Shown here: piece by piece, positions 3,430-25,705 of the stretch
Numbering within the stretch: position 1 is the stretch's first letter
How the letters are laid out: each line of letters starts with the position of its first letter
From: Desulfobacteraceae bacterium CG2_30_51_40
GTDB taxonomy: Bacteria; Desulfobacterota; DSM-4660; Desulfatiglandales; Desulfatiglandaceae
Direction of reading: 5' to 3'
DNA: 52,598 bases
Assembly (NCBI GenBank): GCA_001874005.1
Contig: MNYJ01000009.1
Location: forward strand, 1-52,598
The notes under the pieces: generated by a model
Told to the model about the DNA's origin: nothing
Databases searched by the model: none
What the model saw: the letters and a program-made list of their open reading frames with translations, nothing else
Program-made: the position numbers and the translations under genes

Positions 3430-4227
3430 TCACGTTTTAGTCGCTCCCTTGTATTGTCTGGTTCTTTCTGCAAGTATTTCAGCAAGGTTTGATCTTCCGA
3501 TATTTTCTTCGATCAGCCGAGCAAAGGCGCTACCAATTATTACGCCGTCGGCCGACCTTGATACCCCGGCCACATCATCAACGCTGGAGATGCCGAATCC
3601 TACACATAACGGTAGCGCGGTGTAACGCCGCACCCTCCGGCAGAGCCTGTGAACTTCTGACAGGTTAAGCCCGCTTCCACCGGTGACCCCTGTCATGGAG
3701 ACAATATAGAGAAACCCGGACACGGATGCCGATATGGCTGCGATGCGCTCCTCAGACATGTCAGGTACTATGAGGCGGATCAAAGAAAAATTCTCGTCTT
3801 TACAGCAGGAGGAGAGTTCATCTGATCCCTCGGGCGGCAGGTCCACAACCAGAACTCCGTCTGCCCCTGCTTTTTTCGAGTCACGACAGAAGGCCGCTAC
3901 TCCATATAGATAGATCGGCTTGTAGTAGGAACACACAATGACGGGCCCCTGAAAGCTCCTGCGCAGGGAGGCGGTCATCTCGAAAACGGTTTGCAGCGTG
4001 GTTCCGTTAGAAAGGGCCCTCCGGTAGGAGCGCCGTATGACCTGCCCGTCCGCCGTGGGGTCTGAAAACGGTACCCCGATTTCCAGCATATCCAGGCCGG
4101 AAGCGCACATGGCGCAGACGATCTCCCGGGAGCATTCGATGCTCGGGTCTCCCGCGGTCACAAATCCCACCAGGGCCTTTCCCTTTTTCGGGGCCGTACG
4201 GGAAAAGATTCCGGCAATCCGGTTCAT
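3430..4227 (-). CDS. trpA: Tryptophan synthase alpha chain TrpA
   Basis: 265 residues, full length for TrpA, which splits indole-3-glycerol phosphate into indole and glyceraldehyde 3-phosphate. Both catalytic acids are present at the classical positions: Glu49 in LEIGVPFSDP and Asp60 in DPTADG. The phosphate-binding region is also present (FGISSVDDVAG, then GVIIGSAF near the C terminus). The ATG at 4227 has a good Shine-Dalgarno (AAGGAGAAATAGAATAATG). It is the last gene of the trp operon and follows trpF directly. The usual trpB between them is absent, so the alpha subunit must pair with a beta chain encoded elsewhere. Confidence 0.97.
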   Translation of the reverse strand: MNRIAGIFSRTAPKKGKALVGFVTAGDPSIECSREIVCAMCASGLDMLEIGVPFSDPTADGQVIRRSYRRALSNGTTLQTVFEMTASLRRSFQGPVIVCSYYKPIYLYGVAAFCRDSKKAGADGVLVVDLPPEGSDELSSCCKDENFSLIRLIVPDMSEERIAAISASVSGFLYIVSMTGVTGGSGLNLSEVHRLCRRVRRYTALPLCVGFGISSVDDVAGVSRSADGVIIGSAFARLIEENIGRSNLAEILAERTRQYKGATKT

Positions 4228-4241
4228 TATTCTATTTCTCC

Positions 4242-4946
4242 TTAAAATATCTTTTTTAAAGGCCTGCCGTTAGTTGTTCCGGAAAATGCTCCCCGCAGGT
4301 TTGCTATAAAAGAGGCAACCTTGCTCATGTCTTTTTTCCCGGATGATGTTTCCACCCCGGAACTCACGTCCACGGCATCGGGCAAGGCCGCGGAAACAGC
4401 CTGGACAACGTTGTCCGGGGTCAGACCTCCGGCCAGCACCAGAGCCGCATGCCGCGCCATCGGTCTTGCATCCGCCCAATGCCAGTCTTGGGCGTTTCCG
4501 CCGGGAAGACTTCCTGTGCCGCATTCGGCCAGCAGGGCCGAGGATGCTGCGTATCGCCGGGCGGCTTCAAGTTTGGGAATTCTTTTAGAAAACAGGGTCT
4601 TTATGACCAAAAGCCCCATGCCCCGCAGCGCAGCAATCAGCTCCGGTGACTCATTGCCGTGAAGCTGCACCCCGGTCAGACCGCAGCGCTCAACCTTCTT
4701 TAAGATCGTATCTCTGTCCGCGTCAACAAACACCCCCACGCACGAGGTCTTTCCGCCCAGAGCTGAACCTATCTCCTTTGCCTGCGCATCACTGACATCA
4801 CGTGGGCTTTTTGTAAAAAACACGCACCCAATGGCATCAGCGCCCAGGGCGACGCACTGTTCAGCCTGCTCCGGCAAGGTAATGCCGCATATCTTGATCT
4901 GGGGTATATCGCCTTTGAGTTTCATTTTGATAAGCTGCCGTCCCAC
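4242..4946 (-). CDS. trpF: Phosphoribosylanthranilate isomerase TrpF
   Basis: A TIM-barrel enzyme that converts phosphoribosylanthranilate to the carboxyphenylamino-deoxyribulose phosphate. The family opening IPQIKICGIT has the catalytic Cys. Further signatures are GADAIGCVFFTKSPRDV, VGVFVDAD, GVQLHGNES (with the catalytic Asp replaced by its usual neighbourhood QLHGNE) and LAGGLTPDNV near the end, followed by DVSSGVE. The start is uncertain. The frame is open to 5000; a GTG at 4946 has AAGGGG upstream and is used here, and an ATG at 4925 is closest to the family length. It lies between trpC and trpA with 14 bases to trpA. A 15-residue C-terminal tail beyond the barrel is unusual but harmless. 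Confidence 0.93.
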   Translation of the reverse strand: MGRQLIKMKLKGDIPQIKICGITLPEQAEQCVALGADAIGCVFFTKSPRDVSDAQAKEIGSALGGKTSCVGVFVDADRDTILKKVERCGLTGVQLHGNESPELIAALRGMGLLVIKTLFSKRIPKLEAARRYAASSALLAECGTGSLPGGNAQDWHWADARPMARHAALVLAGGLTPDNVVQAVSAALPDAVDVSSGVETSSGKKDMSKVASFIANLRGAFSGTTNGRPLKKIF

Positions 4947-5019
4947 CCTTCCGTCGGATCCCCTTAAGAGCATGCCCTGCAAACAGCCGTTTTCCCTCAT
5001 CCTGTGGACAGCGGATTTT

Positions 5020-5811
5020 TCAGCACTCTGTTAAGAGGTATCTTAGAAATGCCACAGTGTGCTTGGCCCTGACGAGGCTTTCACCGATCAGAAAGTTATT
5101 GATCCCCGCATTCTTTGTCCGCTTCACGTCATCGCGTGTGACGATACCGCTCGCGGCTATCGGGATTTGGGTCGGTTCAAGCAGGGAGACCAGCCGGGTT
5201 GCAACGCTTATGTCGGTTTTAAAGCTTTTCAGGTCCCGGTTGTTGATGCAGATAAGCTTGGCTCCTGAGGCTGTAGCCGTATCAAGGTCCTTTTCATCGT
5301 GAATTTCCACAAGAGCTTCAAGGCCCACCACATCACAAAGACTTATGAAGTAGGAAAGCACGGCCTCTTTCAGTATCCTCGCTATCAAGAGCACTGCGTC
5401 TGCCCCGGCGGCAGCCGACTCATAAATCTGGTAGGGGCTTATGATGAATTCCTTTCGGAGCACGGGCAGCAGGCATGCCCTGCGGGCCTGCTTCAGGTCG
5501 GAGAGGTTTCCCTTGAAATAGGAGGCATCCGTAAGTACAGATACGGCCGCAGCACCGCCCGCCTCATACCTTGCGGCATAGTCGGCAGCGTCAAGGTCTG
5601 CGCAAATGATTCCCCTGGAGGGGGAGGCCCGCTTTATCTCAGCGATTATGCCTGTGCCGTGCCGGTTCACGCGCAACAGGTTTTCGGCAAACGGGCGCAT
5701 GGGGTCTCGCTCGGCCGCCAGTTCTTTTAATTTAGCCTCCGGCATACGGCGTTTTGCCGCCTCTATTTCTCCGACTTTCGTCTCTACAATGTGCTGCAGT
5801 ATGTCGGTCAT
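5020..5811 (-). CDS. trpC: Indole-3-glycerol phosphate synthase TrpC
   Basis: Closes the indole ring to give indole-3-glycerol phosphate. The start chosen is the ATG at 5811 (MTDILQHIVETK), which has GGAAGGAA upstream and matches the family N terminus, giving 263 residues. Signature stretches: GIIAEIKRASPSRGII (catalytic Lys and the SPS motif), VSVLTDASYFKGN, PVLRKEFII (catalytic Lys), CINNRDLKSFKTDI and AASGIVTRDDV. The reading frame stays open upstream to 5943, overlapping the end of trpD. That 44-residue extension has no family likeness, leaving a 128-base trpD-trpC gap, the largest inside this operon. Confidence 0.95.
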   Translation of the reverse strand: MTDILQHIVETKVGEIEAAKRRMPEAKLKELAAERDPMRPFAENLLRVNRHGTGIIAEIKRASPSRGIICADLDAADYAARYEAGGAAAVSVLTDASYFKGNLSDLKQARRACLLPVLRKEFIISPYQIYESAAAGADAVLLIARILKEAVLSYFISLCDVVGLEALVEIHDEKDLDTATASGAKLICINNRDLKSFKTDISVATRLVSLLEPTQIPIAASGIVTRDDVKRTKNAGINNFLIGESLVRAKHTVAFLRYLLTEC

Positions 5812-5939
5812 CGGCTGATTCCTTCCTTTCAACGTAAAAAATTCACCCACCCAGACCCGCCTACAGGAAAAGGGAGGGAAAACTTCAGTCCGGGCCGCGG
5901 GAAAACGGACTTTAACGCGCGGGGACCGCGATGGCCCCA

Positions 5940-6956
5940 TCATGATTGTCTGGTGAACTCAATCAGTGCATCCAGTTTTTCCATGGCCTTACCGCTCTCG
6001 ATGATATCATCGGCAAGGGTTACGCCCGCGGAGAGATCTTCCGCCTTTCCCCCGGCCACAAGGGCCGCCCCTGCGTTTATGGAAACTATGTTTCTTTTGG
6101 CCCCATTTTCTTTTCCCGAAAGAATCCGACGGATGATCACTGCGTTTTCATCAGGCGTGCCGCCGGCAAGCTCTTCGGGTCGCGCGCGGTCTTCAAAAAA
6201 CTGTTCAGGGGAAATATCATAGGTATGCACGCGCTTGTCGCGAAGTTCGGAGACGCGGGTGGGTGCGCACACGGAGATCTCGTCAAGGCCGTCATGGCCG
6301 TGTACCACAAAGGCCCTCCGGCAGCCAAGCAGATTGAGGGCGTCGGCAAACATCTCCGTGAGCCTCGGGGAAAAGACCCCCAGCACCTGGCAGTTTGCCG
6401 CGGCAGGGTTTGTCAGGGGACCCAGCATGTTGAAGATGGTCCTCACACCAAGCTCCTTTCTTGGTCCAAGGGCATATTTCATGGCGCCATGAAAGAGCGG
6501 GGCAAAAAGAAAGCCTATGCCGATCTCATTGACTGCCTCCTCGGCCACCTCCTGCGCGGTGTTGAGATTTACTCCAAGGGCTTCCAGCACATCGGCGCTC
6601 CCGCAGCGGCTTGAAACCGAACGATTGCCGTGCTTGGCCACGGTGAGCCCTGATCCGGCCACTACAAAGGCCGCAGTGGTGGAGATGTTGAACGTGTGGG
6701 CTCCATCCCCGCCAGTGCCGCAGGTATCCACCACTACGGGCGAAGCAGCCTGTATGCGCACGGCCTTTCGGCGCATGGCCTCTGCAGCGCCGGCAAGCTC
6801 TTCAAAGGTCTCACCCTTGGTGGCCAGGGCAGCCATGAAGGCACCGATCCGGGCGTCGGTCAGGGTTCCGGAAAATATCGCGGAGAAAACCCAGCCGATT
6901 TCCTCCCGAGCAAGGTCTTTACCATTGATGATCTTTGAAAGTATCTGTGAAAACAT
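5940..6956 (-). CDS. trpD: Anthranilate phosphoribosyltransferase TrpD
   Basis: 338 residues, normal length. It transfers phosphoribose from PRPP to anthranilate. The PRPP and magnesium-binding glycine motif DTCGTGGDGAHTFNIST is present, followed by AKHGNRSVSSRCGSADVLEALG, both diagnostic of TrpD, and by RTIFNMLGPLTNPA. There is no fusion with TrpG; the amidotransferase is the separate gene just upstream, 27 bases away. The ATG at 6956 has GGAGGAG upstream. Confidence 0.97.
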   Translation of the reverse strand: MFSQILSKIINGKDLAREEIGWVFSAIFSGTLTDARIGAFMAALATKGETFEELAGAAEAMRRKAVRIQAASPVVVDTCGTGGDGAHTFNISTTAAFVVAGSGLTVAKHGNRSVSSRCGSADVLEALGVNLNTAQEVAEEAVNEIGIGFLFAPLFHGAMKYALGPRKELGVRTIFNMLGPLTNPAAANCQVLGVFSPRLTEMFADALNLLGCRRAFVVHGHDGLDEISVCAPTRVSELRDKRVHTYDISPEQFFEDRARPEELAGGTPDENAVIIRRILSGKENGAKRNIVSINAGAALVAGGKAEDLSAGVTLADDIIESGKAMEKLDALIEFTRQS

Positions 6957-6983
6957 GTCTCCTCCAATCTGGTGTGTGGTTAA

Positions 6984-7547
6984 TCAAAGGGAGAGAAAGT
7001 TCTTCAATATACGTTTACCTTTGGGGGTCATGATGGATTCCGGATGAAACTGAATCCCCCAGGTGTGGTGTTCCCTGTGGCGAAGGCCCATGATCTCACC
7101 GTCCTCAGACTCGGCGCAGATTTCAAGGCATGCAGGCAGAGTGTCCCGTTCCACTGCCAGCGAGTGGTACCGCATGGCGGTAAAGGGAGAAGGGATGCCT
7201 GCGAAGAGCTCACTCCGATCTGTGGTCACGGCCGATGTCTTGCCGTGCATGAGTTGTTTGGCCGGCACAATGGTGCCGCCGAACGCCCGGCCTATGGCCT
7301 GGTGGCCCAGACATACCCCGAGGATGGGAACCCGGCCCGAGGCGCGGCGGACCAGCTCAAGGGATATGCCTGCATCCTCGGGTCGTCCCGGACCCGGGGA
7401 GATGACTATGTGGGAGGGCGCCATGCCTTCGACCTCCGCTATTGTTATAACGTCGTTTCTTGCCACATGAACCTCGGCGCTCAGCATGAGCAGGTACTGA
7501 ACCAGGTTGTAGGTAAATGAGTCGTAGTTGTCTATCATGAGAATCAT
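6984..7547 (-). CDS. trpG: Anthranilate synthase glutamine amidotransferase subunit TrpG
   Basis: 187 residues, a class I glutamine amidotransferase that supplies ammonia to TrpE. The nucleophile Cys79 lies in GVCLGHQAIG, and the catalytic His168 and Glu170 lie in IQFHPESIMT. The oxyanion region is ISPGPGRPEDAG. It begins MILMIDNYDSFTYNLVQYL, the family N terminus. It sits 15 bases after trpE. Its position in the trp operon argues for anthranilate synthase, although a PabA role cannot be excluded, since such subunits are sometimes shared. Confidence 0.96.
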   Translation of the reverse strand: MILMIDNYDSFTYNLVQYLLMLSAEVHVARNDVITIAEVEGMAPSHIVISPGPGRPEDAGISLELVRRASGRVPILGVCLGHQAIGRAFGGTIVPAKQLMHGKTSAVTTDRSELFAGIPSPFTAMRYHSLAVERDTLPACLEICAESEDGEIMGLRHREHHTWGIQFHPESIMTPKGKRILKNFLSL

Positions 7548-7562
7548 GGTCTGCCTCGTGTC

Positions 7563-9050
7563 TTAAGAGTTGTATTGACGGCCGGCCAACTCCAGGGCCT
7601 TCTGTATGGACATGGCCTTGTGCACTGTTTCGACGCGCTCTTTTTCCGGGTCCGAGTCGGCCACGATACCGGCACCTGCCCGCACCGTCAGCCTTTCTGC
7701 TTCAATACAGGCGGTACGGATGGTGATGGCCATGTCCATGTTGCCGCTGAAGGAGATATATCCCACGGCCCCGCCGTACGGTCCCCGGGGCTCGTTTTCC
7801 AGTTTGTCAATGATTTGCATGGCCCGTATCTTGGGAGCACCGGAAAGGGTCCCCGCCGGAAAAGTGGCCGCCAGCAGGTCCCAGGCATCCAACTCCCGGC
7901 GAAGGTCGCAGCGCACGTTGGAGACCAGATGCATCACATGGGAGTAACGCTCGACCATCATCAGTTCCGTCACCTGCACCGTGCCTGTGACGGCGACCCG
8001 ACCCAGGTCGTTTCTCCCCAGATCCACCAACATGAGATGCTCTGCCCTTTCTTTTTCGTCTTTGAGCATCTCGTCGGCCAATGCCCGGTCCTCCTGCTCG
8101 GTTTTTCCCCTGGGCCTGGTACCGGCGATGGGCCGAAGGGTTGCGATCCTGTTTTCAAGGCGCACCATGGTCTCCGGCGATGATCCCACAAGGGCCGTCT
8201 CCCCCATGCGGAGAAGATAAAGATAGGGAGAAGGATTGATGTAACGCTGAGCGCGGTACAGGGTCCGGAGGTCAGGGGCAGGGGCGCAGGAGAAAGGCTG
8301 GGATACGACCGCCTGGATGATTTCACCCTGACGGATATAGGTCTTGGCCTTATCAACCATTTTCCTGTAATCCGCATCCGCCTTTTGGGGTAAAAGTATG
8401 CAGGGAACCTGCGGACGGACGGGAGGTTCAGCGGGCATGGGACCCTGCACGGCGGCAATGAGCTTTGCCACCCTTTCCGCTGCCTCCTCATAGGCCGCGT
8501 CAACGCTCTCCACCGAATGGGTAAAGGCAATTGCCAGGGCCACAAGGGTGTGGCGGATATTGTCAAAGATGATCAGCTCGTCTGGAATGATAAAATCGGC
8601 GATGGGTCGCTCATCGGCCAATCGGTTGGGAATCTTCTCGAAAAAGGAGACCATCTCATAGGTGAAGTAACCCACCAGCCCGCCCCAGAACCGTGGGAGC
8701 CCGGGGATATCAGCCGGCCTGAAACCGGCCATGATAGCGCGAAGGATAGGCAGGGGCCGGCCGTTGTGGCATATCCGTTTTAACGAACCCGCCTCTTCGA
8801 TCTCCACATGTGTCCGGAACAGGCGCACCCGCGCCTTTGCCGATGCGCCAAGAAAGCTGTATCGGCCCCACCGCTCTCCTCCTTCTGCACTTTCAAACAG
8901 AAAGATAGGGCCATGCACGGTGTAGAGTTTTTGCAAGATAGAAACAGGGGTCTCCGTGTCCGCCAGAATTTCAATGCACACCGGTATTATGTTGGCTGTA
9001 TGCGCCATTCGACGGAACGCCTCTTTTTCAGGAAACCGACTCAGGATCAT
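7563..9050 (-). CDS. trpE: Anthranilate synthase component I TrpE
   Basis: 495 residues, the chorismate-binding subunit that makes anthranilate in the first committed step to tryptophan. The N-terminal FLFESAEGGERWGRYSFLG corresponds to the LLES-type region that forms the tryptophan feedback site. The C-terminal catalytic part has LVGSSPETMVRLENRIATLR, PIAGTRPRG, LGRNDLGRVA, TFPAGTLSGAPKIRAMQII and RAGAGIVADSDPEKE. The ATG at 9050 is preceded by AAGGATAAAGGTC. An internal ATG 14 codons later is an alternative. It is the first structural gene of the operon, directly behind the tandem terminators and leader peptide described separately. Confidence 0.97.
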   Translation of the reverse strand: MILSRFPEKEAFRRMAHTANIIPVCIEILADTETPVSILQKLYTVHGPIFLFESAEGGERWGRYSFLGASAKARVRLFRTHVEIEEAGSLKRICHNGRPLPILRAIMAGFRPADIPGLPRFWGGLVGYFTYEMVSFFEKIPNRLADERPIADFIIPDELIIFDNIRHTLVALAIAFTHSVESVDAAYEEAAERVAKLIAAVQGPMPAEPPVRPQVPCILLPQKADADYRKMVDKAKTYIRQGEIIQAVVSQPFSCAPAPDLRTLYRAQRYINPSPYLYLLRMGETALVGSSPETMVRLENRIATLRPIAGTRPRGKTEQEDRALADEMLKDEKERAEHLMLVDLGRNDLGRVAVTGTVQVTELMMVERYSHVMHLVSNVRCDLRRELDAWDLLAATFPAGTLSGAPKIRAMQIIDKLENEPRGPYGGAVGYISFSGNMDMAITIRTACIEAERLTVRAGAGIVADSDPEKERVETVHKAMSIQKALELAGRQYNS

Positions 9051-12210: not shown

Positions 12211-13467
12211 CTAAGAGTCCATCTTAAGCCTCAAGAAAGCAGGGTAATCAAGATCGTCCTTTAGAAGCCTTCCGAAAAAGCCGCGCTTCGGAAGTCTTGT
12301 CTCCGATGCGTTAAACGCGGCGGAAAGGGCTGTTCCTTTCCGCTCAAAAGCCGGGACATCCAGATCCACCACATCAATTGCCTTGTTGCCGATTTTCGCC
12401 GACCAGGGTTCCTCCATCTCATCCTGGGAGGCGTCTCTTATCTTGGCCGAGCCGCTTAAAGATCTTCCGCCTTCAACCGCCCTCAGCTTTCTTCCCACTA
12501 TCGTCTCGGCAGTTAGCCCCGTAGCTATGACGGTAGCCTGAACCTCATCTCCCATATCATCATTGAGAACCAGCCCCCAGTAAACCTCCGCATCCTCATT
12601 TATTTGGCTCTTCACGTAGTTGGAGGCCTCGTCTATCTCATCCATGGTGATGTCGGAGGAGCCTATGAAATTCATGAGAAGTCCCTTGGCCCCCCTTATG
12701 GAGACATCTTCGAGAAGAGGGCTGTTAATAGCGTTCTGCGCCGCCTGCACGGCCCTGTTCTCTCCACTTGCCCTGCCCATGCCCATGAGGGCATTGCCGT
12801 TCTGTGACATTACCCTTTTCACATCGTTGAAATCCAGATTGACGAAACCCGTATGGAGGATTAGATCCGATACGCCCTTGACCGCATTTAGGAGCACCTC
12901 GTCGGCCTTTGCAAACAGTTCCCTGACCTTTGAACCCTTTGCTCCTACGGTCCTCAGCCTGTCGTTGGGTATCACGATGAGGCTGTCCACCTCCTTTCGG
13001 AGGGCGTCAATGCCTGCAAGGGCCTTTTTCATCCTCTTATCCCCTTCAAAACTGAAGGGCTTGGTGACTACCGCCACAGTAAGGGCCTTTTTTTCTTTGC
13101 AGAGCTTTGCGATTACAGGCGAGGCCCCGGTTCCTGTGCCGCCTCCCATGCCGGCCGCGATAAACACCATGTGTGCTCCGTCAATGGCGTCCGCCACCTC
13201 TGAGATGCTCTCTTCCGCCGCCTTCCTTCCGATCTCCTCATCGGCCCCTGTTCCAAGTCCCATGGTAGTTGTAGGCCCAATCTGAATACGACTGCTGCAT
13301 GACGATCTATCCAGGTCCTGGATATCGGTATTGGCTACCGCGAAATCCACCCCCATCAACTTATTGGCTACCATGTTGTTGATAGCGTTACCCCCGGCAC
13401 CTCCGATGCCTATCACCTTTATCCTCACACCGGAGCGATCCTGCTTTTCAACAAACTCGAATTTCAT
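12211..13467 (-). CDS. ftsZ: Cell division protein FtsZ
   Basis: 418 residues. A tubulin-like GTPase that polymerises into the division ring at midcell. The GTP-binding signature GMGGGTGTGASP lies at residues 107-118; NTDIQDL, GPTTTMGLGTGAD and NLDFNDVKRVM (T7 loop) are also present. A variable linker follows, then the conserved C-terminal peptide DYPAFLR near the end, which binds FtsA and other tethers; six residues follow it (LKMDS tail). It is the last gene of the dcw cluster, 22 bases after ftsA. Full length, no anomaly. Confidence 0.98.
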   Translation of the reverse strand: MKFEFVEKQDRSGVRIKVIGIGGAGGNAINNMVANKLMGVDFAVANTDIQDLDRSSCSSRIQIGPTTTMGLGTGADEEIGRKAAEESISEVADAIDGAHMVFIAAGMGGGTGTGASPVIAKLCKEKKALTVAVVTKPFSFEGDKRMKKALAGIDALRKEVDSLIVIPNDRLRTVGAKGSKVRELFAKADEVLLNAVKGVSDLILHTGFVNLDFNDVKRVMSQNGNALMGMGRASGENRAVQAAQNAINSPLLEDVSIRGAKGLLMNFIGSSDITMDEIDEASNYVKSQINEDAEVYWGLVLNDDMGDEVQATVIATGLTAETIVGRKLRAVEGGRSLSGSAKIRDASQDEMEEPWSAKIGNKAIDVVDLDVPAFERKGTALSAAFNASETRLPKRGFFGRLLKDDLDYPAFLRLKMDS

Positions 13468-13489
13468 GATGTCCCTCCTGCTGCCTCAA

Positions 13490-14716
13490 CTAGGTAAGAT
13501 CCTTAAACCACCTCTTCATCCTGCTCATGACACGGCTAAAGATATTGTTTGTGTCCCTTATCCTGAACTTTTTTACATTTCTGCTGGATTCGGCCCCATA
13601 GAGCACAAGTCCCACGGCGGTTGAATACATGGGCTTGTTGACCAGATCAACCAGCCCTGTTATGCCCCTTGGCCTTCCTATGCGAACAGGAGCATTGAAT
13701 ACCTTACCCGCAAGTTCCGCCACGCCCTGAAGCTCAGCAGATCCGCCTGTTACGACGATCCCGGAGGCTGTCGTGTTCTCAAGCCCGGCGTTTATGAGTT
13801 CCCCAAAGGTAAGTATGAATATCTCCTCGACCCTGGGCTCGAGAATCTCACCCAGCACCCTTCGCGGAAGCATGCGCGGCTTTACCTCTCCGACTGTAGG
13901 GACCTCCACCGTCTCATCCTTGCCTATGAGGCCGGGAAAGCAGCAACCGTACTTGATCTTGATCTTTTCAGCCTCAAGCTTAGGAGTCCTCAATCCCACC
14001 GCAAGATCATAGGTAAGGTTATCGCCGCCGAGGGCCAAAACGGACGTATGTCTTATGGAGCCTTTGGAGAAGACTGCAAGATCCGTTGTGCCTCCGCCGA
14101 AATCAATAAGGGCGACTCCAAGATTCTTCTCCTCCTTGGAGAGGACCGCACCGCTCGACGCAAGAGGTTGAAGAACTATGTCGCACACATCGAGCCCCGC
14201 CCGGTTGGCGCATCTGATTATGTTCTGAGCGGATGTGACGGCCCCTGTAACTATGTGAACCCTGACCTCAAGCCTGACCCCCGACATCCCTACCGGGTTC
14301 ACTATACCGTCCTGGTCATCAACGATATATTCCTGAACAAGGGTATGGATCACTTCTCTATCCATGGGAATAGCCCGCGCGCTCGCAACCTCCATGACCC
14401 TGTCAATATCTCTCTGGGTGATCTCCCTACCTTTGAGTGGAATGGCCCCGTGGGAGTTGAATCCCTTGACGTGGCCTCCGGCTATGCCGGCATACACGGA
14501 ACCGATCTCACAACCGGCCATGGTCTCCGCCTCTTCTATGGCCTGTTTTATGGAGTTGACGGTATTTTCGATATTGATGACGACACCTTTTCTGAGGCCT
14601 TCGGAGAGATAGCTCCCCATGCCTATTATCTCTATGGACTCTCCGGCCAGGGCCCCCACCACCGCGCATATCTTCGTGGTTCCTATGTCAAGCCCGACTA
14701 TTATCTCTTCCGACAT
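13490..14716 (-). CDS. ftsA: Cell division protein FtsA
   Basis: 408 residues, an actin-like ATPase that anchors FtsZ to the membrane. It has the phosphate-1 motif VGLDIGTTKICAVVG at the N terminus, the SHS2-type 1C domain region in the first half, phosphate-2 IDFGGGTTDLAVF, the adenosine motif GIVVTGGSAELQGV, and a C-terminal amphipathic helix (SRVMSRMKRWFKDL) that would lie on the membrane. It follows ftsQ and precedes ftsZ, the conserved order of the cluster. Confidence 0.98.
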   Translation of the reverse strand: MSEEIIVGLDIGTTKICAVVGALAGESIEIIGMGSYLSEGLRKGVVINIENTVNSIKQAIEEAETMAGCEIGSVYAGIAGGHVKGFNSHGAIPLKGREITQRDIDRVMEVASARAIPMDREVIHTLVQEYIVDDQDGIVNPVGMSGVRLEVRVHIVTGAVTSAQNIIRCANRAGLDVCDIVLQPLASSGAVLSKEEKNLGVALIDFGGGTTDLAVFSKGSIRHTSVLALGGDNLTYDLAVGLRTPKLEAEKIKIKYGCCFPGLIGKDETVEVPTVGEVKPRMLPRRVLGEILEPRVEEIFILTFGELINAGLENTTASGIVVTGGSAELQGVAELAGKVFNAPVRIGRPRGITGLVDLVNKPMYSTAVGLVLYGAESSRNVKKFRIRDTNNIFSRVMSRMKRWFKDLT

Positions 14717-14737
14717 TTCCTCAAGCCTCCCGCCGCC

Positions 14738-15556
14738 TCAGCCCTTCTTGAAAGAGACAGCCACCCCGTCTTCATAGTTAAGATCTATAGCCGCAACCTG
14801 ATCAGCCCGACCCGTTTCTTTGAGGTGGCCCAGTATGCGCTTCAACTCAGGGAGTTTTGCTGCGAAATCAGAGCCCGCGCATCGTATCTCCGCCTTAAGA
14901 TCGGTAAGATAGAGCGTCATGAGCCCGTTTGCCTTCATGTTTATCTCAGCCACCTTGTCAAAGGATAGGCTTCCCTCCTCACTTTTCAGGGCCTTTAGCA
15001 GACCGACAGCCATGGAAATCTGATTTTTTCTTATCGGATGGTCCTCGCTAAGTCCGGTCAGAATAGGATATTCCACATTGTCACCCGGCTTCAGTTCCTT
15101 GAATACCTCACCCGTTTCATCAAGAAACGAGATGATGTTCCCCGGCACAAGAGCGATGGGGGTACGTCTTTCAACCTCTATGTGAAGACTCCGGGGAAAC
15201 TGCCTCTTCAAACTCACCGATCTCACCCACGGATGTATCTCCATCCTCTGCTTGATGTCCTTCATATCCAGGTCAATAGTGCTTATCTCCACGTCAAGCC
15301 CGCCCATCTGGATGAGTTCCCTCTCTATCTCAGGTCCAGTCCCCGTAATTACAAGATTCTTCAATCTGAAATACGAACTTGTCAGGAGATACTGGTATGC
15401 AGACACGAATGCCAGACTTACCAGGGCCGCTGAGATGAGAAAGACAACCGTTACGAAGGCGGCAAAGCTGGCCTTCTGTATCCCTGTTCCTATCCTGCTC
15501 AGTAAGGAGGCCCTGCGTCTTCTAACAGGTCTGCTTTTAAGGCGCGAGGGAACCAT
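14738..15556 (-). CDS. ftsQ: Cell division protein FtsQ (POTRA domain)
   Basis: 272 residues. It has a basic cytoplasmic N terminus (LKSRPVRRRR), one membrane segment at about residues 33-55 (FAAFVTVVFLISAALVSLAF), then a POTRA domain starting near YFRLKNLVITG and reaching HPWVRSVSLKRQFPRSLHIEVE, followed by the FtsQ domain with EVFKEL and PILTGL. It links early and late divisome proteins in the periplasm. The start ATG shares one base with the murB stop (TGATG). No ddl gene separates murB and ftsQ, unlike many proteobacterial clusters. Confidence 0.95.
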   Translation of the reverse strand: MVPSRLKSRPVRRRRASLLSRIGTGIQKASFAAFVTVVFLISAALVSLAFVSAYQYLLTSSYFRLKNLVITGTGPEIERELIQMGGLDVEISTIDLDMKDIKQRMEIHPWVRSVSLKRQFPRSLHIEVERRTPIALVPGNIISFLDETGEVFKELKPGDNVEYPILTGLSEDHPIRKNQISMAVGLLKALKSEEGSLSFDKVAEINMKANGLMTLYLTDLKAEIRCAGSDFAAKLPELKRILGHLKETGRADQVAAIDLNYEDGVAVSFKKG

Positions 15557-16488
15557 CAGGACTCATCCCCCAGGATACGGATCTCAAGTTCCAGCTCTAT
15601 CCCGCTTACCTCCTTAACCCTCTCCCTGGCCGTGTTGATCAGCCCGATGATATCATCCGATCCAGCTCCACCGATATTTACTATCCAGTTTGCGTGGACC
15701 GGGGAAATCCTTGCTCCTCCCCGCTGCATCCCCTTGAGCCCCGCGGCTTCAATAAGCCTCCCCGCATAGTCTCCGGGAGGATTTTTGAATATTGATCCGG
15801 CGCTTGGAGCATCAAGCGGCTGTTTCTCATTTCGCTTCCTGATGAAATCCTTGATCCGGCCCCTTACATCTTCCTTTTCAGCGCGTTCAACGGCAAAGGC
15901 CCCTTCAACTACGATCCAACCTCTTCCAAGTGAAAGCTCCCTGTAACCGAAATGAAGATCCCTGCCTTCAATTGCTTCCACTGAGCCATCAGGCTTAACG
16001 ACCTTTATACCTGTAACCTTTCCGCCTATATCGGAGCCGAATGCGCCCGTGTTTACTGAAATGGCTCCACCCGCGCTGCCTGGAATACCGGCAAGGAACT
16101 CAAGGCCGCTTAAGCCTTCATCTGCGCAAAAACGCATGAGATCTTTTAATTGCGCCCCTGCCCCGCAGATAAGTTCATGACGGTTTACCTTTTCTTCCAA
16201 CCTCAGGCCGGCTATCTTTCGGCCGAACCTTATTACGAGCCCGCCTATGCCGGCATCCCTAACTAGTATATTGCTTCCCCTTCCTATGACCACATAGGGA
16301 AGCGAGGCTACGTTCGCAAAGGAAATAACCATTGAAAGCTCTTCGATATCTTTCGGTTCATAAAGTGCCTCGGCCCTTCCGCCTACCTTGAAGCTCGTAA
16401 AGGAAGACAGAGACACTCCAAAGCTTACCGAACCGCCGGTCAGGCTCTTTAGTCTTTCAATCTGTTCCTCTGTGAATCTCTTGATCAC
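15556..16488 (-). CDS. murB: UDP-N-acetylenolpyruvoylglucosamine reductase MurB
   Basis: 310 residues, an FAD enzyme that reduces UDP-GlcNAc-enolpyruvate to UDP-MurNAc. Motifs: [30 protein letters not shown] (FAD phosphate loop), [41 protein letters not shown] (catalytic Ser in SAGS) and VHANWIVN. The absence of the extra tyrosine loop region makes it type II, as in Gram-positives and many anaerobes. It overlaps murC by 4 bases. Confidence 0.97.
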
Positions 16489-17873
16489 TTATCCCGCTTC
16501 ATCTCCTCAAGGAGCCTTTCCCCCACTTCATATATGTCGCCCGCGCCGAGTGTCATAACCACATCGCCTTTTTTTACTGTCACCCGCAGATGGGAGAATA
16601 GTCCCTCTCTACCTTCAAAAGACCTCACATCCTTGTGGCCGTGCATCTTGACCCCCTGTGCGAGGCTATCAGAACTCACTCCTTCTATGGGCTCCTCGTG
16701 AGCGCCGTATATCTTATCGAGGAGCAGCACATCAGCTTCATTAAATGTCAGGACAAACCTTTCATAGAGAGACTTTGTCCTTGTGTATCTGTGCGGCTGG
16801 AAGGCCACCACAAGCCTTCTATCAGGCCAGCATTCCCTGGCGGTCTTCAGTGTTGCGATTATCTCGGTCGGATGATGGCCGTAATCATCAATGACCAGAA
16901 TGCCAGCCGCCTCACCCTTGATCTGAAAACGCCTCGCTACGCCGCCGAGGTTTTTCAGCCCCTCGCTTATGACCTCCATGGGAATGTCCAGTTCCAGACC
17001 GACCCCTATCGCGGCCAGCGAATTGAGCACATTGTGCTCTCCCGGTATCCCCAGAGTTACCCTTCCCATTGAACGACCCTTATAAAGTGCCTCAAAGCTG
17101 CTTTGTCTGACGTCTTTTTTCAGGTCGCCTGCCCTGAGATCGGCCTGAGAAGACATGCCGTAGGTCAGGTATCTTTTTTTGAGCCGGGGGATTATGCCCT
17201 GAATCTCCTCATTATCCAGACAAAGTATGGACGTGCCGTAGAAAGGCACCTTGTTTATGAAGGCGGCAAAGGTGTCCCTCAAATTATCCATTGTCCCGTA
17301 ATGATCAATATGCTCAAGGTCAATATTGGTGACAACCGAGATAGCCGGAGAAAGAGCCATGAATGACCCGTCGCTTTCATCCGCCTCCGCTACAAGTATA
17401 TCGCCCTGCCCGAGCTTGGCATTTGAGCCGCCCCATATATCCAGTCTTCCCCCTATCACAACGGTCGGATCAAGCCCTCCGGCGGTAAGGACGGAGGCCA
17501 CCATAGAGGTGGTAGTGGTCTTACCGTGAGCACCCGCCACGGCTACCCCGAACTTAAGACGCATCAGTTCGCTGAGCATCTCTGCGCGAGGGATGACCGG
17601 AATCGCAAGGTCCCTTGCGGCAATTATCTCCGGATTCGTGTCCGAGACCGCCGAAGAATAGACGACCACATCGGCGCCTGCGGTATTTTCCCTGTTGTGC
17701 CCCTGGGAGACCTTTGCTCCCATCGCCGCAAGCCGCCTGGTAGCGGCACTCTGCTTCAGATCCGAGCCGCTCACCTCATAGCCGAGGTTGATCAGGAGTT
17801 CGGCTATGCCGCTCATCCCGATTCCGCCGATCCCGATAAAGTGGATATGTCTGGTCTTGCCTAGCCTGTTCAT
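16485..17873 (-). CDS. murC: UDP-N-acetylmuramate--L-alanine ligase MurC
   Basis: 462 residues. Adds L-alanine to UDP-MurNAc with ATP in the cytoplasm. The N-terminal UDP-binding domain has [17 protein letters not shown]. The ATP P-loop is [14 protein letters not shown], with ESDGSFM and [11 protein letters not shown] following in the central domain. [10 protein letters not shown] and FQPHRYTRT in the C-terminal domain are MurC-specific. It overlaps murG and murB by 4 bases each, indicating translational coupling. Confidence 0.98.
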
Positions 17874-18988
17874 AAATGGGCCATCTCCATAAGGCCGTCG
17901 GCTATCGCACCGGCCGCATAAGGTCTGGCGATCCCGAGGGCCGCCCTCGACATGCTTGAAAGCAGGTCCCTGCCCGTCATATATTTCATGATAAGGTCAC
18001 AGAGAAGCTCACCGCTCAGGTCACGCTGGAGTATCATCTCAGCCGCCCCTGCCTTAACGAGGCTTCTCGCGTTGGACTCCTGATGATTGTTGGCCGCAAA
18101 CGGATAAGGAACAAGAATCGAGGGCTTCCCGGTAGCCGCGAGTTCGAATATGGTTGTTGCTCCGGCTCTTCCCACTACGAGATCCGCCTTTCGATAGGCC
18201 GCGGCCATATCGTAGATGAAGGCCGATACTTCGGCGTCCGCGTTGAATCCCTTGTAGCTCGAACTGATCCTTTCCAAATCATTCTTGCCGGTCTGATGGA
18301 TCACCCTGATGATCCTGCCCTTTCCCTTCAATATCTTTACGGCTTCAATCACCGCCTCATTTACCGCTATCGCCCCCTGGCTTCCCCCGACAACAAGCAG
18401 TGTAAAGGATTGATTCATGTCCTTTTGATTTTCAATAGTCAGGGAATCAGGCCGCCCACTTCCCTCAAGAAACTCTTCCCTCACCGGGTTTCCCGTTATC
18501 ACGATCCTGGGGCATTTAAGAAACCGGGCGCTCTCCTCAAAGCTTACAAAGCAGCAGTCAACCACCCTTGCAAGCAGGCGGTTTGTAAGGCCGGGGTAGG
18601 AGTTCTGTTCATGAACGGCGGAAGGCACCTTCATCATCCTTGCGGCAAGGCATACCGGCCCGGAAGAATAACCTCCCACCCCAAGGACAAAATGGGGTTT
18701 GAGCCGCCTTATCACATCGGAGGCCTGAGAAAGACTCCCCGGTAAACCGAAAATCACCTTCATCTTCTTGATGATAGAGCCGCCCTTGAGACCCTCCACA
18801 TCAAGGCTCCTGGATGGATAACCGTATCTGGAAAGTATTTCGGCCTCCAGGGGCCTTTTGCCCACAACAAACAATATCTCCGGCTTCTCAACCCGCTTTT
18901 CAAGCTCACGGGCGACCGCTATGCCGGGAAAGAGATGCCCTCCGGTACCTCCCCCTGCTATCACGGCTCTCAGCTCAGAAACGGCCAC
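17870..18988 (-). CDS. murG: Undecaprenyl-PP-MurNAc-pentapeptide GlcNAc transferase MurG
   Basis: 372 residues, a GT-B glycosyltransferase on the inner face of the membrane that converts lipid I to lipid II. The N-terminal glycine loop is [19 protein letters not shown], and [24 protein letters not shown]-like sequence completes the acceptor domain. The donor UDP-GlcNAc site is in [29 protein letters not shown] and [12 protein letters not shown]. It lies 11 bases after ftsW. Confidence 0.97.
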
Positions 18989-18999
18989 TTTCGATCCTC

Positions 19000-20121
19000 C
19001 TACCCCTTTTTGGCCTGAGAGGAGATGCTTAGAAGCACCCCTATCCCGAATAGAGTCATTACAAGGGATGATCCGCCATAACTCATCAAGGGCAGTGTCA
19101 GGCCCTTTGTAGGAAGGAGGCCCATCACCACAGCCATATTTATCAAGACCTGGATACCCATCATGGACGATATCCCAAGGGCCAGGTAGCAGCTGTAAAG
19201 GTCCCTCGCCTTAAGAGAAACGCTTATGCCGCGATAGACTACCAGTATGAAAAGACCCATGATGCATATAAGTCTCAGGAAACCGAGTTCCTCGGCTGCT
19301 ACCGAGAGGATGAAATCCGTGTGGGGCTCGGGCAGATAGAAAAGCTTCTGTTTTCCGTCTCCAAGGCCGGCTCCGGTAACCCCGCCGGAACCGAAGGCCA
19401 GAAAGGAGTGGATTATCTGAAAGCCTATACCCCTTGGGTCATCCCACGGATTCAGGAAGGCAAATATCCTCTTCATTCTGTAGCTCGCCCTGAGGACCAG
19501 CCATAATAAGACCGGAGCTGAGGCTATGAAGAGCAATACCAGATAACGGATGCGCACACCTCCGACAAACAGCAGCATCATGACCCAGGTTCCAAGGATC
19601 ACGGCAGTTCCGAGATCAGGCTGCACCACGACTAGCATCAGGAAAATGCCGGCCACCGCCAGGTGCGGTATGAGGCCCCGGGAAAAATAGGCCATCTCGG
19701 ATTTCTTCTCCGCCATGCTCTGGGCCAGGTAGAGCACCAGAGCGAATTTCGCAAGCTCAGAGGGCTGAAACGAAAAGAATCCCAGGCTGATCCATCTGGA
19801 AGCATGTCCTGCCTTATGGCCCAGACCAGGTATCAAGACCATTATCAGAAACATCAGGCTCAGGATCAGGAGCGGATAAACCATCTTTTCGTAAAAAGAG
19901 ACCTTTATGTTCTTTGCCGCTACCATGAATCCGATGCCGATAAGGGCGAAAACCGCCTGCCTTTTCAGATAGAAATAGCTGTCTCCGATCCTGTAGAGGG
20001 CAAGATGGGCACTTGCGCTGTAAACCACCACAAGCCCTATCACCAGAAGGGCCACGGCAGGCACAAGTATTGTGTAGTCATAATGCGGCACTTCCCTGAA
20101 TCGCCCCTCAGACATCCGCAA
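19000..20121 (-). CDS. ftsW: Lipid II polymerase FtsW (SEDS family)
   Basis: 373 residues with about ten hydrophobic segments. SEDS signatures include FFSFQPSELAKFALVLYLA, VQPDLGTAVIL, WDDPRGIGFQIIHSFLAFGSGG and the C-terminal LPTKGLTLPLMSYGGSSL. FtsW polymerises septal glycan with its partner transpeptidase FtsI, which is encoded in the same cluster. It overlaps the end of murD by 14 bases. Confidence 0.97.
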   Translation of the reverse strand: MRMSEGRFREVPHYDYTILVPAVALLVIGLVVVYSASAHLALYRIGDSYFYLKRQAVFALIGIGFMVAAKNIKVSFYEKMVYPLLILSLMFLIMVLIPGLGHKAGHASRWISLGFFSFQPSELAKFALVLYLAQSMAEKKSEMAYFSRGLIPHLAVAGIFLMLVVVQPDLGTAVILGTWVMMLLFVGGVRIRYLVLLFIASAPVLLWLVLRASYRMKRIFAFLNPWDDPRGIGFQIIHSFLAFGSGGVTGAGLGDGKQKLFYLPEPHTDFILSVAAEELGFLRLICIMGLFILVVYRGISVSLKARDLYSCYLALGISSMMGIQVLINMAVVMGLLPTKGLTLPLMSYGGSSLVMTLFGIGVLLSISSQAKKG

Positions 20122-21514
20122 TCCTCCTTGCCGCTTGGCTGAAGACAGTTCCTCTCTGGGCGTAGTCAGTGAACATGTCGAAACTTGAGCAGGCGGGCGC
20201 CAGGAGCACTACTTCGCCCGGAGCGGCCGCCTTTGAAGCGATGTAAACCGCTTCTTCCATGCTGCCTGCCATGCTGTAGGGGATGGAACCCTCAAAGGCC
20301 TCCGCGAGAAGTTCGCTCGCCTCTCCTATAAAAACGGCTTTCTTGACATTTCCCAAACAGGCGTCCACCAGGGGCTTGTAGTCTGCGCCCTTGTGCCTTC
20401 CTCCCGCAATAAGGACGATCTTTGAGTCGAAGCACTCCACCGCCTTTATTGCCGCATCAAGATTGGTGGCCTTGGAGTCATCGTAGTAGCGTATTGCCTT
20501 TATCTCTCCGACAAACTCAATGCGGTGACGGAGTCCTTTGAATTCTCTTATCCCCTCGCGGATAATCTCAGGATCAACCCCTGCGCAGAGTGCCGCAAGA
20601 ACAACTGATAGGAGGTTTGACCTGTTGTGGATACCTGGAAGGCTAAAGCCGGGAAGGGAAAATTCATGCCTCTTTTCCGGGCCGATCTCAACGATGCAGT
20701 CATCACCACCGATGAATGCGTCCCTTTTGATCTTCCCGCCTCCGGGGCCTCTGCGCTCGCGAGTCATGCCGTACCTCAGCTCCCGCACCCCTTCAGGTGC
20801 CCTGAATCCCGAAAGTACCTCATCATCGTCGTTAAGGACGGAAAATTGATCTTTGTGCTGATTCTCAAATATTCTCAGTTTGGAATTGATATATGAACTA
20901 TAGCTGTCATACCTCTCAAGATGATCAGGGGATATATTCAAACACACAGATATATAGGGAGAAAACTCCTGGATCGTATCAAGCTGAAAACTGCTTACCT
21001 CGACAACCGCATAATCGGGCACCCGCTTCTGACAGGCGAGCGCCATCAATGGTGTCCCAATGTTGCCTCCCACGAAGACATCGGCCCCCGCCTTTTTGAG
21101 CAGAAGCCCTATGAATTCCGTTACCGTGGATTTTCCGTTGGTCCCTGTTACGGCAATTATCCGAACTCCGCGCCGTTCCCTCGTTTCCCCGGAGATGATT
21201 CGGAATGCCAGCTCCATCTCCCCTATTATCGGAATCCCCTTTTCCCTGGCCTGGACAAAAAGCTCCATGTCGTGGGGAACTCCCGGGCTCAGGACTACGA
21301 GATCTGAGTTAAGGAAGAGCGACCGGCTGTGGCCGCCCGTTTCCACCCGGCCGCCGAGGCCTTCTATCTCATCGCACAATGCAGGGCCTATCTGGTTTTT
21401 CTCCCTCCTGTCGCTTACGGTAAAGACCGCCCCCTGGCCGGCAAGCCAACGTGCCGTCCATAATCCTGAAACGCCCAGACCGGCTATCACTACTTTCTTT
21501 TTGCGAACATCCAT
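20108..21514 (-). CDS. murD: UDP-N-acetylmuramoylalanine--D-glutamate ligase MurD
   Basis: 468 residues. Adds D-glutamate to UDP-MurNAc-L-Ala. It has an N-terminal Rossmann-like domain (VVIAGLGVSGLWTARWLAG), the P-loop VTGTNGKSTVTEFIG, then VEVSSFQLD, CLNISPDHLERYDS (carbamylated-lysine region follows), YYDDSKATNLDA, IAGGRHKGADY and the C-terminal SSFDMFTDYAQRGTVF, all family marks. It is located between mraY and ftsW. Confidence 0.98.
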   Translation of the reverse strand: MDVRKKKVVIAGLGVSGLWTARWLAGQGAVFTVSDRREKNQIGPALCDEIEGLGGRVETGGHSRSLFLNSDLVVLSPGVPHDMELFVQAREKGIPIIGEMELAFRIISGETRERRGVRIIAVTGTNGKSTVTEFIGLLLKKAGADVFVGGNIGTPLMALACQKRVPDYAVVEVSSFQLDTIQEFSPYISVCLNISPDHLERYDSYSSYINSKLRIFENQHKDQFSVLNDDDEVLSGFRAPEGVRELRYGMTRERRGPGGGKIKRDAFIGGDDCIVEIGPEKRHEFSLPGFSLPGIHNRSNLLSVVLAALCAGVDPEIIREGIREFKGLRHRIEFVGEIKAIRYYDDSKATNLDAAIKAVECFDSKIVLIAGGRHKGADYKPLVDACLGNVKKAVFIGEASELLAEAFEGSIPYSMAGSMEEAVYIASKAAAPGEVVLLAPACSSFDMFTDYAQRGTVFSQAARRIADV

Positions 21515-21548
21515 CGAGTGCTTCCCTAAATCCCCTTCGCGATAAATC

Positions 21549-22628
21549 TCATCTCAATTTCAGGGTGCTGAAGGCCATAAGGGCCAGTATGATTGCAATT
21601 ATCCAAAATCTGACGATCACCTTGGGCTCAGGCCAGCCCTTTAACTCGAAATGATGATGTATAGGGGCCATGCGGAATATCCTGTGCCCGCCTGTGATCT
21701 TGAAGTAACCAACTTGGAAGATGACTGAAAGAGCCTCGAATACAAAAAGCCCACCGACAAGAATAAGCATGATCTCCTGCTTGGTTATCAAGGCTACCGT
21801 TCCAAGTATGGCTCCCAGGGAAAGAGAACCCACATCCCCCATAAAGACCTCGGCAGGATATGTGTTGTACCAGAGAAAACCGAGCCCTGCTCCGACCGCT
21901 GCGCCGCACAGGACGGAAAGCTCTCCTGAGCCGGCCACATAAGGGATCTGCAGGTAGGAGGCTATCTTCACGTGTCCTGCAAGGTATGAGAAGATGAGAT
22001 ATGTTCCGAAGGCAACTATTATCGGGCTTATAGCAAGCCCGTCCAGGCCGTCTGTCAGGTTGACCGCATTGGACGTGCCCACTATTACAAAGACCGCCAT
22101 GAGGACATATCCCCATCCCAGATCAGGCGCGAGCCCCTTAAAAAATGGAAGATAAAGGCGGGAATCAAATCCTGGATAACTGTAAAGCACGACAGATGCT
22201 AAGGCCGCCACCAGAAGCTGCATAAGGAACTTGGATTTTGCTGTAAGCCCGAGGTTGTTTTTTCGCTTGATCTTGAGGTAATCGTCGGCAAAGCCGATCG
22301 CCCCGAAAAGCAAAGCAACCCCCGCGACAACCCATGTGTAGAGGTTGGCCGGATCGGCCCAGAGCAGGGAGGAGACTAATATGGCAGGGATTATAAGGCA
22401 TCCACCCATTGTGGGAGTGCCCTCCTTGGCCTTGTGACGCGCGGGGCCTTCGTCTCTTACATACTGGCCGGCCTTGAGTTGCCTCAGCAGATTGATCACA
22501 AACCTGCCGAAGACAAAGCTGATAAAAAGGGCGGTAAGGGTCGAAAGGACGCTCCTGAATGTTATATAGCGGAAGACATTAAGCCAGCTTAGATCTCCCT
22601 GAAACATATATAAGAGCCTGTAGAGCAT
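21549..22628 (-). CDS. mraY: Phospho-MurNAc-pentapeptide transferase MraY
   Basis: 359 residues, about ten membrane helices. Transfers phospho-MurNAc-pentapeptide to undecaprenyl phosphate, making lipid I. The diagnostic motifs are [28 protein letters not shown] (Asp pair), [28 protein letters not shown] and the [18 protein letters not shown] histidine loop. It lies 9 bases after murF. Confidence 0.98.
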
Positions 22629-22637
22629 ATCCCGTAG

Positions 22638-24062
22638 CTATCTCCCCTCTTGAACCGCCTTCTCAGTTAGCGAGAACGCCACCCTGTCCAGCCCGGCTTT
22701 TCTTGATGCCTTGAGCAGGATGATATCCTTGCCTGAGATATGCCGCTTTAATTTTTCGGCCATGTCTTCGGCGGAGTCACAGACAACAATCGCCTCGGGA
22801 GCCATTCCGCCCTCTGCGGCACCCTGGGCCATATCTAGGGCAAACTCCCCTACGACAAAAAAACGCACTGCTCCGATGGCGGCAACCATCCTTCCTGCCT
22901 CACGATGGGCGCTCACGGCGGCTCCACCCAGTTCCCTCATGTCTCCGAGGCCTACTACGATTGACCTTTCTTCACCGGAAGCAAACGAAGAAAGGGTATC
23001 CAGGGCGGCCTTAAGCGAAAGGGGGTTGGCATTATAGGTGTCATCTATCATTAGTGCGCCGTCCGGTAGTGCTATGGGACTGAACCTTCCCTTCAGAGAC
23101 GTGAAAAGCCTGAGGCCCCTTACTATCTCCGCAGAAGAAGCACCAAGAAGCATCGCAGCTCCGGCCGCGGCAAGGGCGTTTTTTATATTGTGCAGGCCGT
23201 GCACCGAAAGAGTCACATCCTGCTCAGCCTTATCAAAAAACATAGTAAATGTTGTGCCCTCATGGCTCTCCCTGATCCTTGACGCCCTGATCCTGTTTGA
23301 GGCCTTGAGGCCGAACGTAAGGATATTTCTGCCGTAAGGAGAGGCTGTCTTCATGAGGAGTTCGTCATCTCCGTTAAGGACAACGGTTGCGGATTTACGG
23401 ATGCCCGCAACCATCTCCGTCTTGGCCCTGGCTACCCCATTTATATCCCCGAGGCCCTCAAGATGAGCCATCCCCACATTTGTTATAACCCCCACATCCG
23501 GGTCCGCGATCTCCATAAGACGCGCTATCTCACCAACTCTATTCATTCCCATCTCAAGGACGGCAAAGTTATCTTCAGGACTCATCCCTAAGATCGTCAG
23601 GGGAAGCCCTATAAGGTTATTGAGGTTTCCCATCGTCTTAAGCGCCCTTCCCTTCAGGGAAAGAATCCCATGCAGCATCTCTTTTGTGGTGGTTTTACCG
23701 GCGCTGCCCGTAACGGCAGCGACCTTTGCGCTGCTTTCTGTTCTCCAGAGGTTTGCAAAATCCCCCAGTGCCTTAAGCGTATCTTCGACAGCAATGAGCG
23801 TCATCCCATGCATGGGGGAAAGGTGGTCAACCTTTTCCTTAATTATCACAGCCCCCGCCGCCCCGCTTCCAGATACCTTTTCCACGAAATCATGCCCGTC
23901 AAACCGTTCACCAGGGATGGCCCAGAAAAGATACCCAGGCCCTATAGACCTTGAGTCGGTGCTTATGCCTGCAAAGGGCTTTGCAGGATCTCCTTTTGCA
24001 ATAAGCCCTCTTACGGCATCGGCTACCTCTTTACCAGTAATCTCACCCCACACACAGCTCAC
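22638..24062 (-). CDS. murF: UDP-MurNAc-tripeptide--D-alanyl-D-alanine ligase MurF
   Basis: 474 residues. Adds D-Ala-D-Ala to complete the pentapeptide precursor. It shows the N-terminal GISTDSRSIGPGYLFWA, the P-loop VTGSAGKTTTKEML, then GNLNNLIGLPLTIL, EMGMNRVGEIARL, IDDTYNANPLSLKAAL and GDMRELG, all typical of MurF. It overlaps the murE stop by 4 bases. D-Ala-D-Ala ligase (ddl) is not in this cluster, so its substrate is made by a gene elsewhere. Confidence 0.98.
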   Translation of the reverse strand: MSCVWGEITGKEVADAVRGLIAKGDPAKPFAGISTDSRSIGPGYLFWAIPGERFDGHDFVEKVSGSGAAGAVIIKEKVDHLSPMHGMTLIAVEDTLKALGDFANLWRTESSAKVAAVTGSAGKTTTKEMLHGILSLKGRALKTMGNLNNLIGLPLTILGMSPEDNFAVLEMGMNRVGEIARLMEIADPDVGVITNVGMAHLEGLGDINGVARAKTEMVAGIRKSATVVLNGDDELLMKTASPYGRNILTFGLKASNRIRASRIRESHEGTTFTMFFDKAEQDVTLSVHGLHNIKNALAAAGAAMLLGASSAEIVRGLRLFTSLKGRFSPIALPDGALMIDDTYNANPLSLKAALDTLSSFASGEERSIVVGLGDMRELGGAAVSAHREAGRMVAAIGAVRFFVVGEFALDMAQGAAEGGMAPEAIVVCDSAEDMAEKLKRHISGKDIILLKASRKAGLDRVAFSLTEKAVQEGR

Positions 24063-25606: not shown

Positions 25607-25705
25607 TAATCACTCCCCTATCAACATACGGCAAAAAAACGGCGTCTTCATTTTCAGAAAACCTCTCTTTTTCACATCCATCAAGCCTGCAGGCGCCAAG
25701 GCAGA

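Follow-up and report, generated by a model that had tools for sequence, protein, structure and literature searches.

What becomes of the alpha chain of tryptophan synthase when the gene for its beta chain is missing from the operon, and how might such a cell complete the synthesis of tryptophan? Tryptophan synthase is a textbook pair of mutually dependent subunits, with indole passed through a tunnel. The question is raised by a trp operon in the window (the whole stretch of DNA that was analysed, 52,598 nucleotides, contig C112 of genome G000), which has the gene order trpE-G-D-C-F-A at positions 3430–9050 of the minus strand, each gene being a single, full-length open frame. The first gene, trpE (anthranilate synthase component I, 7563–9050), matched TIGR00564 with 492 bits, a little under the cut-off of 518. 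It is followed by trpG (glutamine amidotransferase of anthranilate synthase, 6984–7547; TIGR00566, 248 bits versus a cut-off of 121), trpD (anthranilate phosphoribosyltransferase, 5940–6956; TIGR01245, 426 versus 199), trpC (indole-3-glycerol phosphate synthase, 5020–5943; NF001377, 287 versus 260), trpF (phosphoribosylanthranilate isomerase, 4242–5000) and trpA (tryptophan synthase alpha chain of 265 amino acids, 3430–4227; TIGR00262, 237 versus 102). The match of trpF to NF002298 (187 bits, below the strict cut-off of 215) covered residues 34–237; TrpE and TrpF are thus both strong family matches that lie slightly below strict equivalog cut-offs. The start of homology near residue 34 of TrpF suggests that the real start codon may be a later ATG. 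An Rfam search of the window detected neither a leader nor a riboswitch. The dcw (division and cell wall) cluster lies upstream of the operon on the same strand (12211–27706) and includes FtsZ, MurB, a MurG-type glycosyltransferase, a Mur ligase and a PASTA penicillin-binding protein. A second TrpD-like protein is encoded outside the operon (contig C185, L154, 239–1453; 310 bits to TIGR01245), and similar second copies are present in several relatives.

Between trpF and trpA there are 14 bases (4228–4241, minus strand), which read GGAGAAATAGAATA on the coding strand, with GGAG located 10 bases before the trpA ATG; this stretch is likely to serve as a ribosome-binding site, judging from its sequence. 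In the same-genus genome G001, trpB1 sits at this position (L056, 2814–4055). A tblastn search of the 52.6-kb window with G001 TrpB1 gave no match (best E value, 0.66). In the whole of G000 (3.44 Mb in 229 contigs, 97% complete, so that about 3% may be absent), no protein scored over the cut-off of 392 for the TrpB1 profile TIGR00263, the best score being about 143–144 bits for a TrpB2. A search of the entire genome for the PALP fold yielded only four places, corresponding to a CysM-CysS fusion, a D-cysteate sulfo-lyase-like protein, the TrpB2 and threonine synthase (ThrC). The fusion is a 770–amino acid open frame consisting of cysteine synthase B (CysM) and a complete cysteinyl-tRNA synthetase (CysS) (contig C54, L001, 690–3002). 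The TrpB1 that a canonical TrpAB1 enzyme requires was thus not found in G000. A sequence-only reading of this operon had described six intact genes, a 14-base gap where trpB normally sits, no trpB nearby and a TrpA with both catalytic acids, and the coordinates, junction sequence, family matches, window search and TrpA alignment agree with it on all of these points.

The TrpB2 gene is the only TrpB-like gene of G000 and is located on contig C151 (1303–2691, minus strand), apart from the trp operon on C112. Its product scored 638 bits with TIGR01415 and 730 bits with NF009057, both over the cut-offs, and is full length, with the motifs GSHKPN (containing the catalytic Lys), TETGAGQWG and GLRYHG. 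In the last of these, Arg takes the place of the Asp of TrpB1, as is typical of TrpB2. The best solved relative was chain B of 6hul (430 bits), which we take to be Sulfolobus solfataricus TrpA/TrpB2i; the G000 protein has additional residues compared with it. The D300 residue of TrpB1 was previously described as arginine in TrpB2 (Merkl 2007, PMC1854888), and TrpB2 enzymes have been named O-phosphoserine dependent tryptophan synthases (Busch 2014, as cited in PMC11917138). The G000 TrpB2 is of the ordinary non-operon type that is also carried by relatives with TrpB1, and its alignment gave no sign of adaptation to TrpA. In both G000 (C151, L059, 1–2691) and G001 (C2, L060, 5182–9380), trpB2 is adjoined by the gene for a small protein and then by apparent indolepyruvate:ferredoxin oxidoreductase genes, whose names here come from their sequences rather than from a family search. 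This neighbourhood hints at a role for TrpB2 in aromatic amino acid turnover.

The only other genome of the same genus, G001 (66% complete), contains trpE-G-D-C-F-B1-A, with trpB1 overlapping both of its neighbours, and has a TrpB2 that is 93.5% identical to that of G000 in the same neighbourhood. The ends of trpF and trpA that are joined in G000 can be aligned with their intact counterparts in G001. Given that this relative keeps trpF-trpB1-trpA together with the same TrpB2 locus, trpB1 was most likely lost in the lineage of G000. In the TrpA tree the two genomes are nearest neighbours, apart from the common type of the family, with partial support for the pairing (99/49). Identity between the two genomes was 54% for TrpA, 50% for TrpF, 53% for TrpC, 66% for TrpD and 67% for TrpG; set against that of TrpB2, these low values leave room for the operon of G000 or G001 having been replaced horizontally.

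We then looked at relatives in a survey of the class, which comprised 55 genomes of one order with a completeness of 85% or more; TrpA was found in 31 of these and TrpB1 in 28, with TrpA unaccompanied by TrpB1 in three (G000, G024 and G002). A survey of the phylum covered 394 genomes with a completeness of 92% or more; 343 of them encoded TrpA and 336 TrpB1, and a comparison of the two tables by hand gave nine TrpA-positive genomes without a TrpB1 match, so that the state is uncommon in the phylum. Six of the nine lie outside the family of G000, and their loci were examined individually. G274, G422 and G115 were rejected as cases given that their trpA lies at a contig edge, and G390, with a lone and very divergent trpA outside any operon, was kept apart. 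G002, of the same genus as G024, was also rejected as a clean case: the NH2-terminal part of its trpC is fused in frame to trpA (C364, L057, 1–1101) and its trpE and trpD are in pieces (C327, L165), so that its operon is either decaying or poorly assembled. In another relative, G028 (97% complete), only trpE-G-D is present, followed by unrelated genes (C401, L157, 1–2793); this genome has a TrpB2 and neither TrpA nor TrpB1.

Three further genomes (92–97% complete) share the arrangement of G000. In G024, from another genus of the same family, the order is trpE-G-D-C-F-A and trpA begins a few bases past trpF, and G200 and G292, two species of one genus in a distant family, have overlapping trpF and trpA genes; all three lack TrpB1 and carry a TrpB2 elsewhere in the genome. 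In G133, a TrpB1-bearing member of the family of G200, trpF ends in ...GTTAAGAGAGCAG and is followed by the ATG of trpB, and trpA begins with ATGAGCAGGATCGATCAT. The corresponding junction of G200 reads ...GTCAGAAAAGCGG-ATGAGCAGGATCGATCAA, with the trpA start codon in place of the trpB start codon and the GGAGG site retained. Judged against G133, the deletion in G200 and G292 thus runs from the start codon of trpB to that of trpA. Since this junction is common to both species, it suggests that trpB1 was lost before they separated. The orphan state requires five changes on the TrpA tree, at least four of which are forced by well-supported branches (G002 and G390 being counted). Apart from that of G000, no fewer than two lineages of the phylum have lost trpB1 independently.

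The TrpA of G000, whose best solved relatives are 5ey5 and other TrpA chains, retains Glu49, Asp60, the PFSDP sequence of loop 2 and the GVTG motif of loop 6, and the catalytic acids are also retained in the orphan TrpAs of G200 and G292. We aligned 80 TrpA sequences, 73 of which served for comparison. The residues Asn103 (alpha-Asn104 of Salmonella), Glu134 (Glu135) and Arg161 were invariant in all 73 comparison sequences, whereas G000 has Lys103 and Gly134. Lys at the Asn104 position is also present in G292, and so occurs twice independently among orphans. Asn104 lies at the alpha/beta contact, and it covaries with the beta chain (PMC8187860). The near-invariant Pro131 is replaced by Thr in G200 and Ser in G292, and G200 has Pro55. 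In G024, Phe54 is replaced by Cys and the acid at position 56 by Lys; the Asp56Gly substitution nearly abolished activity of Escherichia coli TrpA (PMC7008512), and the changes in G024 are likely harmful to activity. Among columns conserved at 85% or more, with the interface defined from segments in the literature and G390 left out, the four operon orphans departed from the consensus in 7 of 64 interface cells, compared with 13 of 1168 cells for the comparison sequences (Fisher 3e-5). The corresponding counts outside the interface were 4 of 112 and 62 of 2044 (p = 0.77). These cells are related by descent and so are not independent, and the excess at the interface is a lead and not proof. When G390 was added, orphan TrpAs also exceeded the comparison set at non-interface positions (p = 0.0007), so that the interface excess is a property of the four operon orphans. 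Looking for altered TrpA contact residues, as the sequence-only reading had proposed, thus yielded a signal in this excess and in the two occurrences of Lys at Asn104.

Between G200 and G292, trpA (70% identity) has a dN/dS of about 0.19 at a dS of 0.95, compared with 0.12 for trpC and 0.13 for trpF. Orphan trpA in this second lineage is under purifying selection, and, given the low ratio, the gene has been selected without trpB1 if the loss predates the split of the two species. Synonymous sites were saturated between G000 and G001, and the ratio was therefore unusable for this pair. With G096 as the outgroup, unique changes in G000 and G001 numbered 36 and 23 for TrpA, 31 and 27 for TrpC, and 23 and 24 for TrpF, respectively. 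The excess in G000 TrpA was not significant (chi-square of about 2.9, p of about 0.09), which points at most to a mild acceleration and could reflect early relaxation. All 265 residues of G000 TrpA aligned with the TrpB1-paired TrpA of G001 without a gap.

The closest known counterpart is the S2 arrangement of Thermoplasma acidophilum and T. volcanium, with a trpA2-D-F-E-G-C cluster and trpB2 elsewhere; the survey that described it found no bacterial genome with trpB2 only (Merkl 2007, PMC1854888). Our search of the literature, which covered few subscription papers, likewise returned no bacterial trp operon without trpB in which TrpB2 is the sole beta chain. G000 shares with Thermoplasma a trp cluster that contains trpA and lacks trpB, the absence of TrpB1 and a lone TrpB2 gene located away from that cluster, which are the features that define S2. 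It differs in that its gene order is bacterial, as is the organism, in that its TrpB2 is of the common bacterial non-operon type, and in that the loss is recent enough for a relative of the same genus still to have trpB1. The archaeal TrpA2 type is described as carrying two deletions and, after Pyrococcus position 125, an insertion of three residues (Merkl 2007, PMC1854888). The G000 protein is of the TrpA1 type, being gapless against its G001 counterpart and set apart from TrpA2 by that description; the absence of such insertions and deletions relative to the sister sequence, unlike in archaeal TrpA2, argues for an independent bacterial route to an S2-like state. As in Sulfolobus solfataricus, TrpB2 is the only beta-chain class, although Sulfolobus trpB2i lies inside the operon and the G000 gene elsewhere. 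Geobacter metallireducens and G. sulfurreducens are also bacteria with TrpB2, and their trpB1 and trpA lie apart (PMC2700814). The trpB1 of G. sulfurreducens is annotated as a pseudogene (PMC1854888); Geobacter still has the trpB1 sequence and has trpB2 inside the operon, whereas G000 has neither. Maize BX1 and IGL (PMC11574760) resemble G000 TrpA in that the latter would need to act without TrpB1, but BX1 coexists, as a paralogue, with a normal tryptophan synthase, whereas in G000 the only TrpA of the cell has lost its partner.

We consider the following account the probable one, with appreciable doubt. A clean deletion would have removed trpB1 from a trpEGDCFBA operon that was otherwise intact, and trpA, with a ribosome-binding site of its own, would have come to lie immediately after trpF. 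The genes through trpC would supply indole-3-glycerol phosphate, TrpA would cleave it to indole, and TrpB2, encoded on the other contig, would couple indole with O-phosphoserine (or serine) to form tryptophan, the preference for phosphoserine being proposed by analogy with published TrpB2 enzymes. With TrpB2 taking over the beta reaction in the cell, trpB1 would have become dispensable, and TrpA, presumably active without TrpB1, would have been retained for the supply of indole. Given that this TrpB2 is the common non-operon type, indole would probably reach it by way of solution or of a weak contact, not by a tunnel of the TrpB1 type, and the old contact surface of TrpA may be beginning to change. 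Against this account stand the poor catalysis of the TrpAs studied to date in the absence of TrpB1 (PMC11574760, PMC8187860), the lack of any sign of adaptation to TrpA in TrpB2, and the decayed or partial operons of G002 and G028.

The chief rival, which we regard as unlikely though to be taken seriously, is that the operon is decaying in a tryptophan auxotroph, or in an indole scavenger that relies on TrpB2, with the loss of trpB1 as an early step and the other genes to follow. The patchy distribution of trp genes favours it (24 of the 55 genomes of the class lack both TrpA and TrpB1, and TrpD is present in 41), as do the bare trpEGD of G028, the broken operon of G002 and the probable damage to TrpA in G024. 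Against decay, the six remaining genes are full length, TrpA has its catalytic residues, and the junction is clean, with a ribosome-binding site; nor would one expect decay at random to take out exactly trpB and spare trpA in three lineages. The most direct counter-evidence is the purifying selection on trpA in G200 and G292. The sequence-only reading had allowed either for a trpB elsewhere, perhaps of the TrpB2 type, or for loss of the last step of the pathway. The genome-wide search gave one TrpB2 and no TrpB1, which supports the former, and the decayed operons in the class leave the latter some probability.

That same reading would have been overturned by an assembly error dropping about 1.2 kb between 4227 and 4242. 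The division of G000 into 229 contigs is compatible with such an assembly or binning artefact, but the same gene is absent at the same place, with clean junctions, in three unrelated lineages, both gene ends align with those of G001 across a gap that is a plausible ribosome-binding site, and no fragment of TrpB1 was found in G000; we consider an artefact very improbable. It is similarly improbable, if a little less so, that trpB1 was relocated to an unassembled part of the genome, as might be imagined from the 3% that may be missing and from the separation of trpB1 from trpA in Geobacter (PMC2700814): the 97% that is present gave no TrpB1 match, and chance absence from G024, G200 and G292 as well would be unlikely. 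Hardly credible in our view is a TrpA that makes indole on its own for signalling or export, as plant BX1 and IGL do, with tryptophan imported or made otherwise. The altered contact residues of orphan TrpAs and the indolepyruvate:ferredoxin oxidoreductase genes near trpB2 would fit such a role, but trpA still lies in an operon with all of the upstream trp genes, its loop 6 keeps the GVTG of the TrpA type, and a TrpB2 able to use indole is present.

If trpB1 was indeed lost cleanly and TrpB2 supplies the beta reaction, annotation pipelines that score genomes lacking trpB as tryptophan auxotrophs would need correction, and genomes of the G000 type would provide a test of the widespread and poorly understood TrpB2 as a working bacterial tryptophan synthase. 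Several losses of the beta chain with the alpha chain kept under selection would mean that the coupling of the two can be undone, and would identify the residues that change. As a tentative extension, for which we hold less than even confidence, bacterial TrpAs may repeatedly have been freed from TrpB1, to become stand-alone indole-3-glycerol phosphate lyases or to enter a new, weak partnership with TrpB2, with convergent changes at the contact surface such as that of Asn104 to Lys. Should this be true, these proteins would represent naturally occurring stages between tight coupling, as in the bacterial enzyme, and the uncoupled state of its archaeal counterpart.
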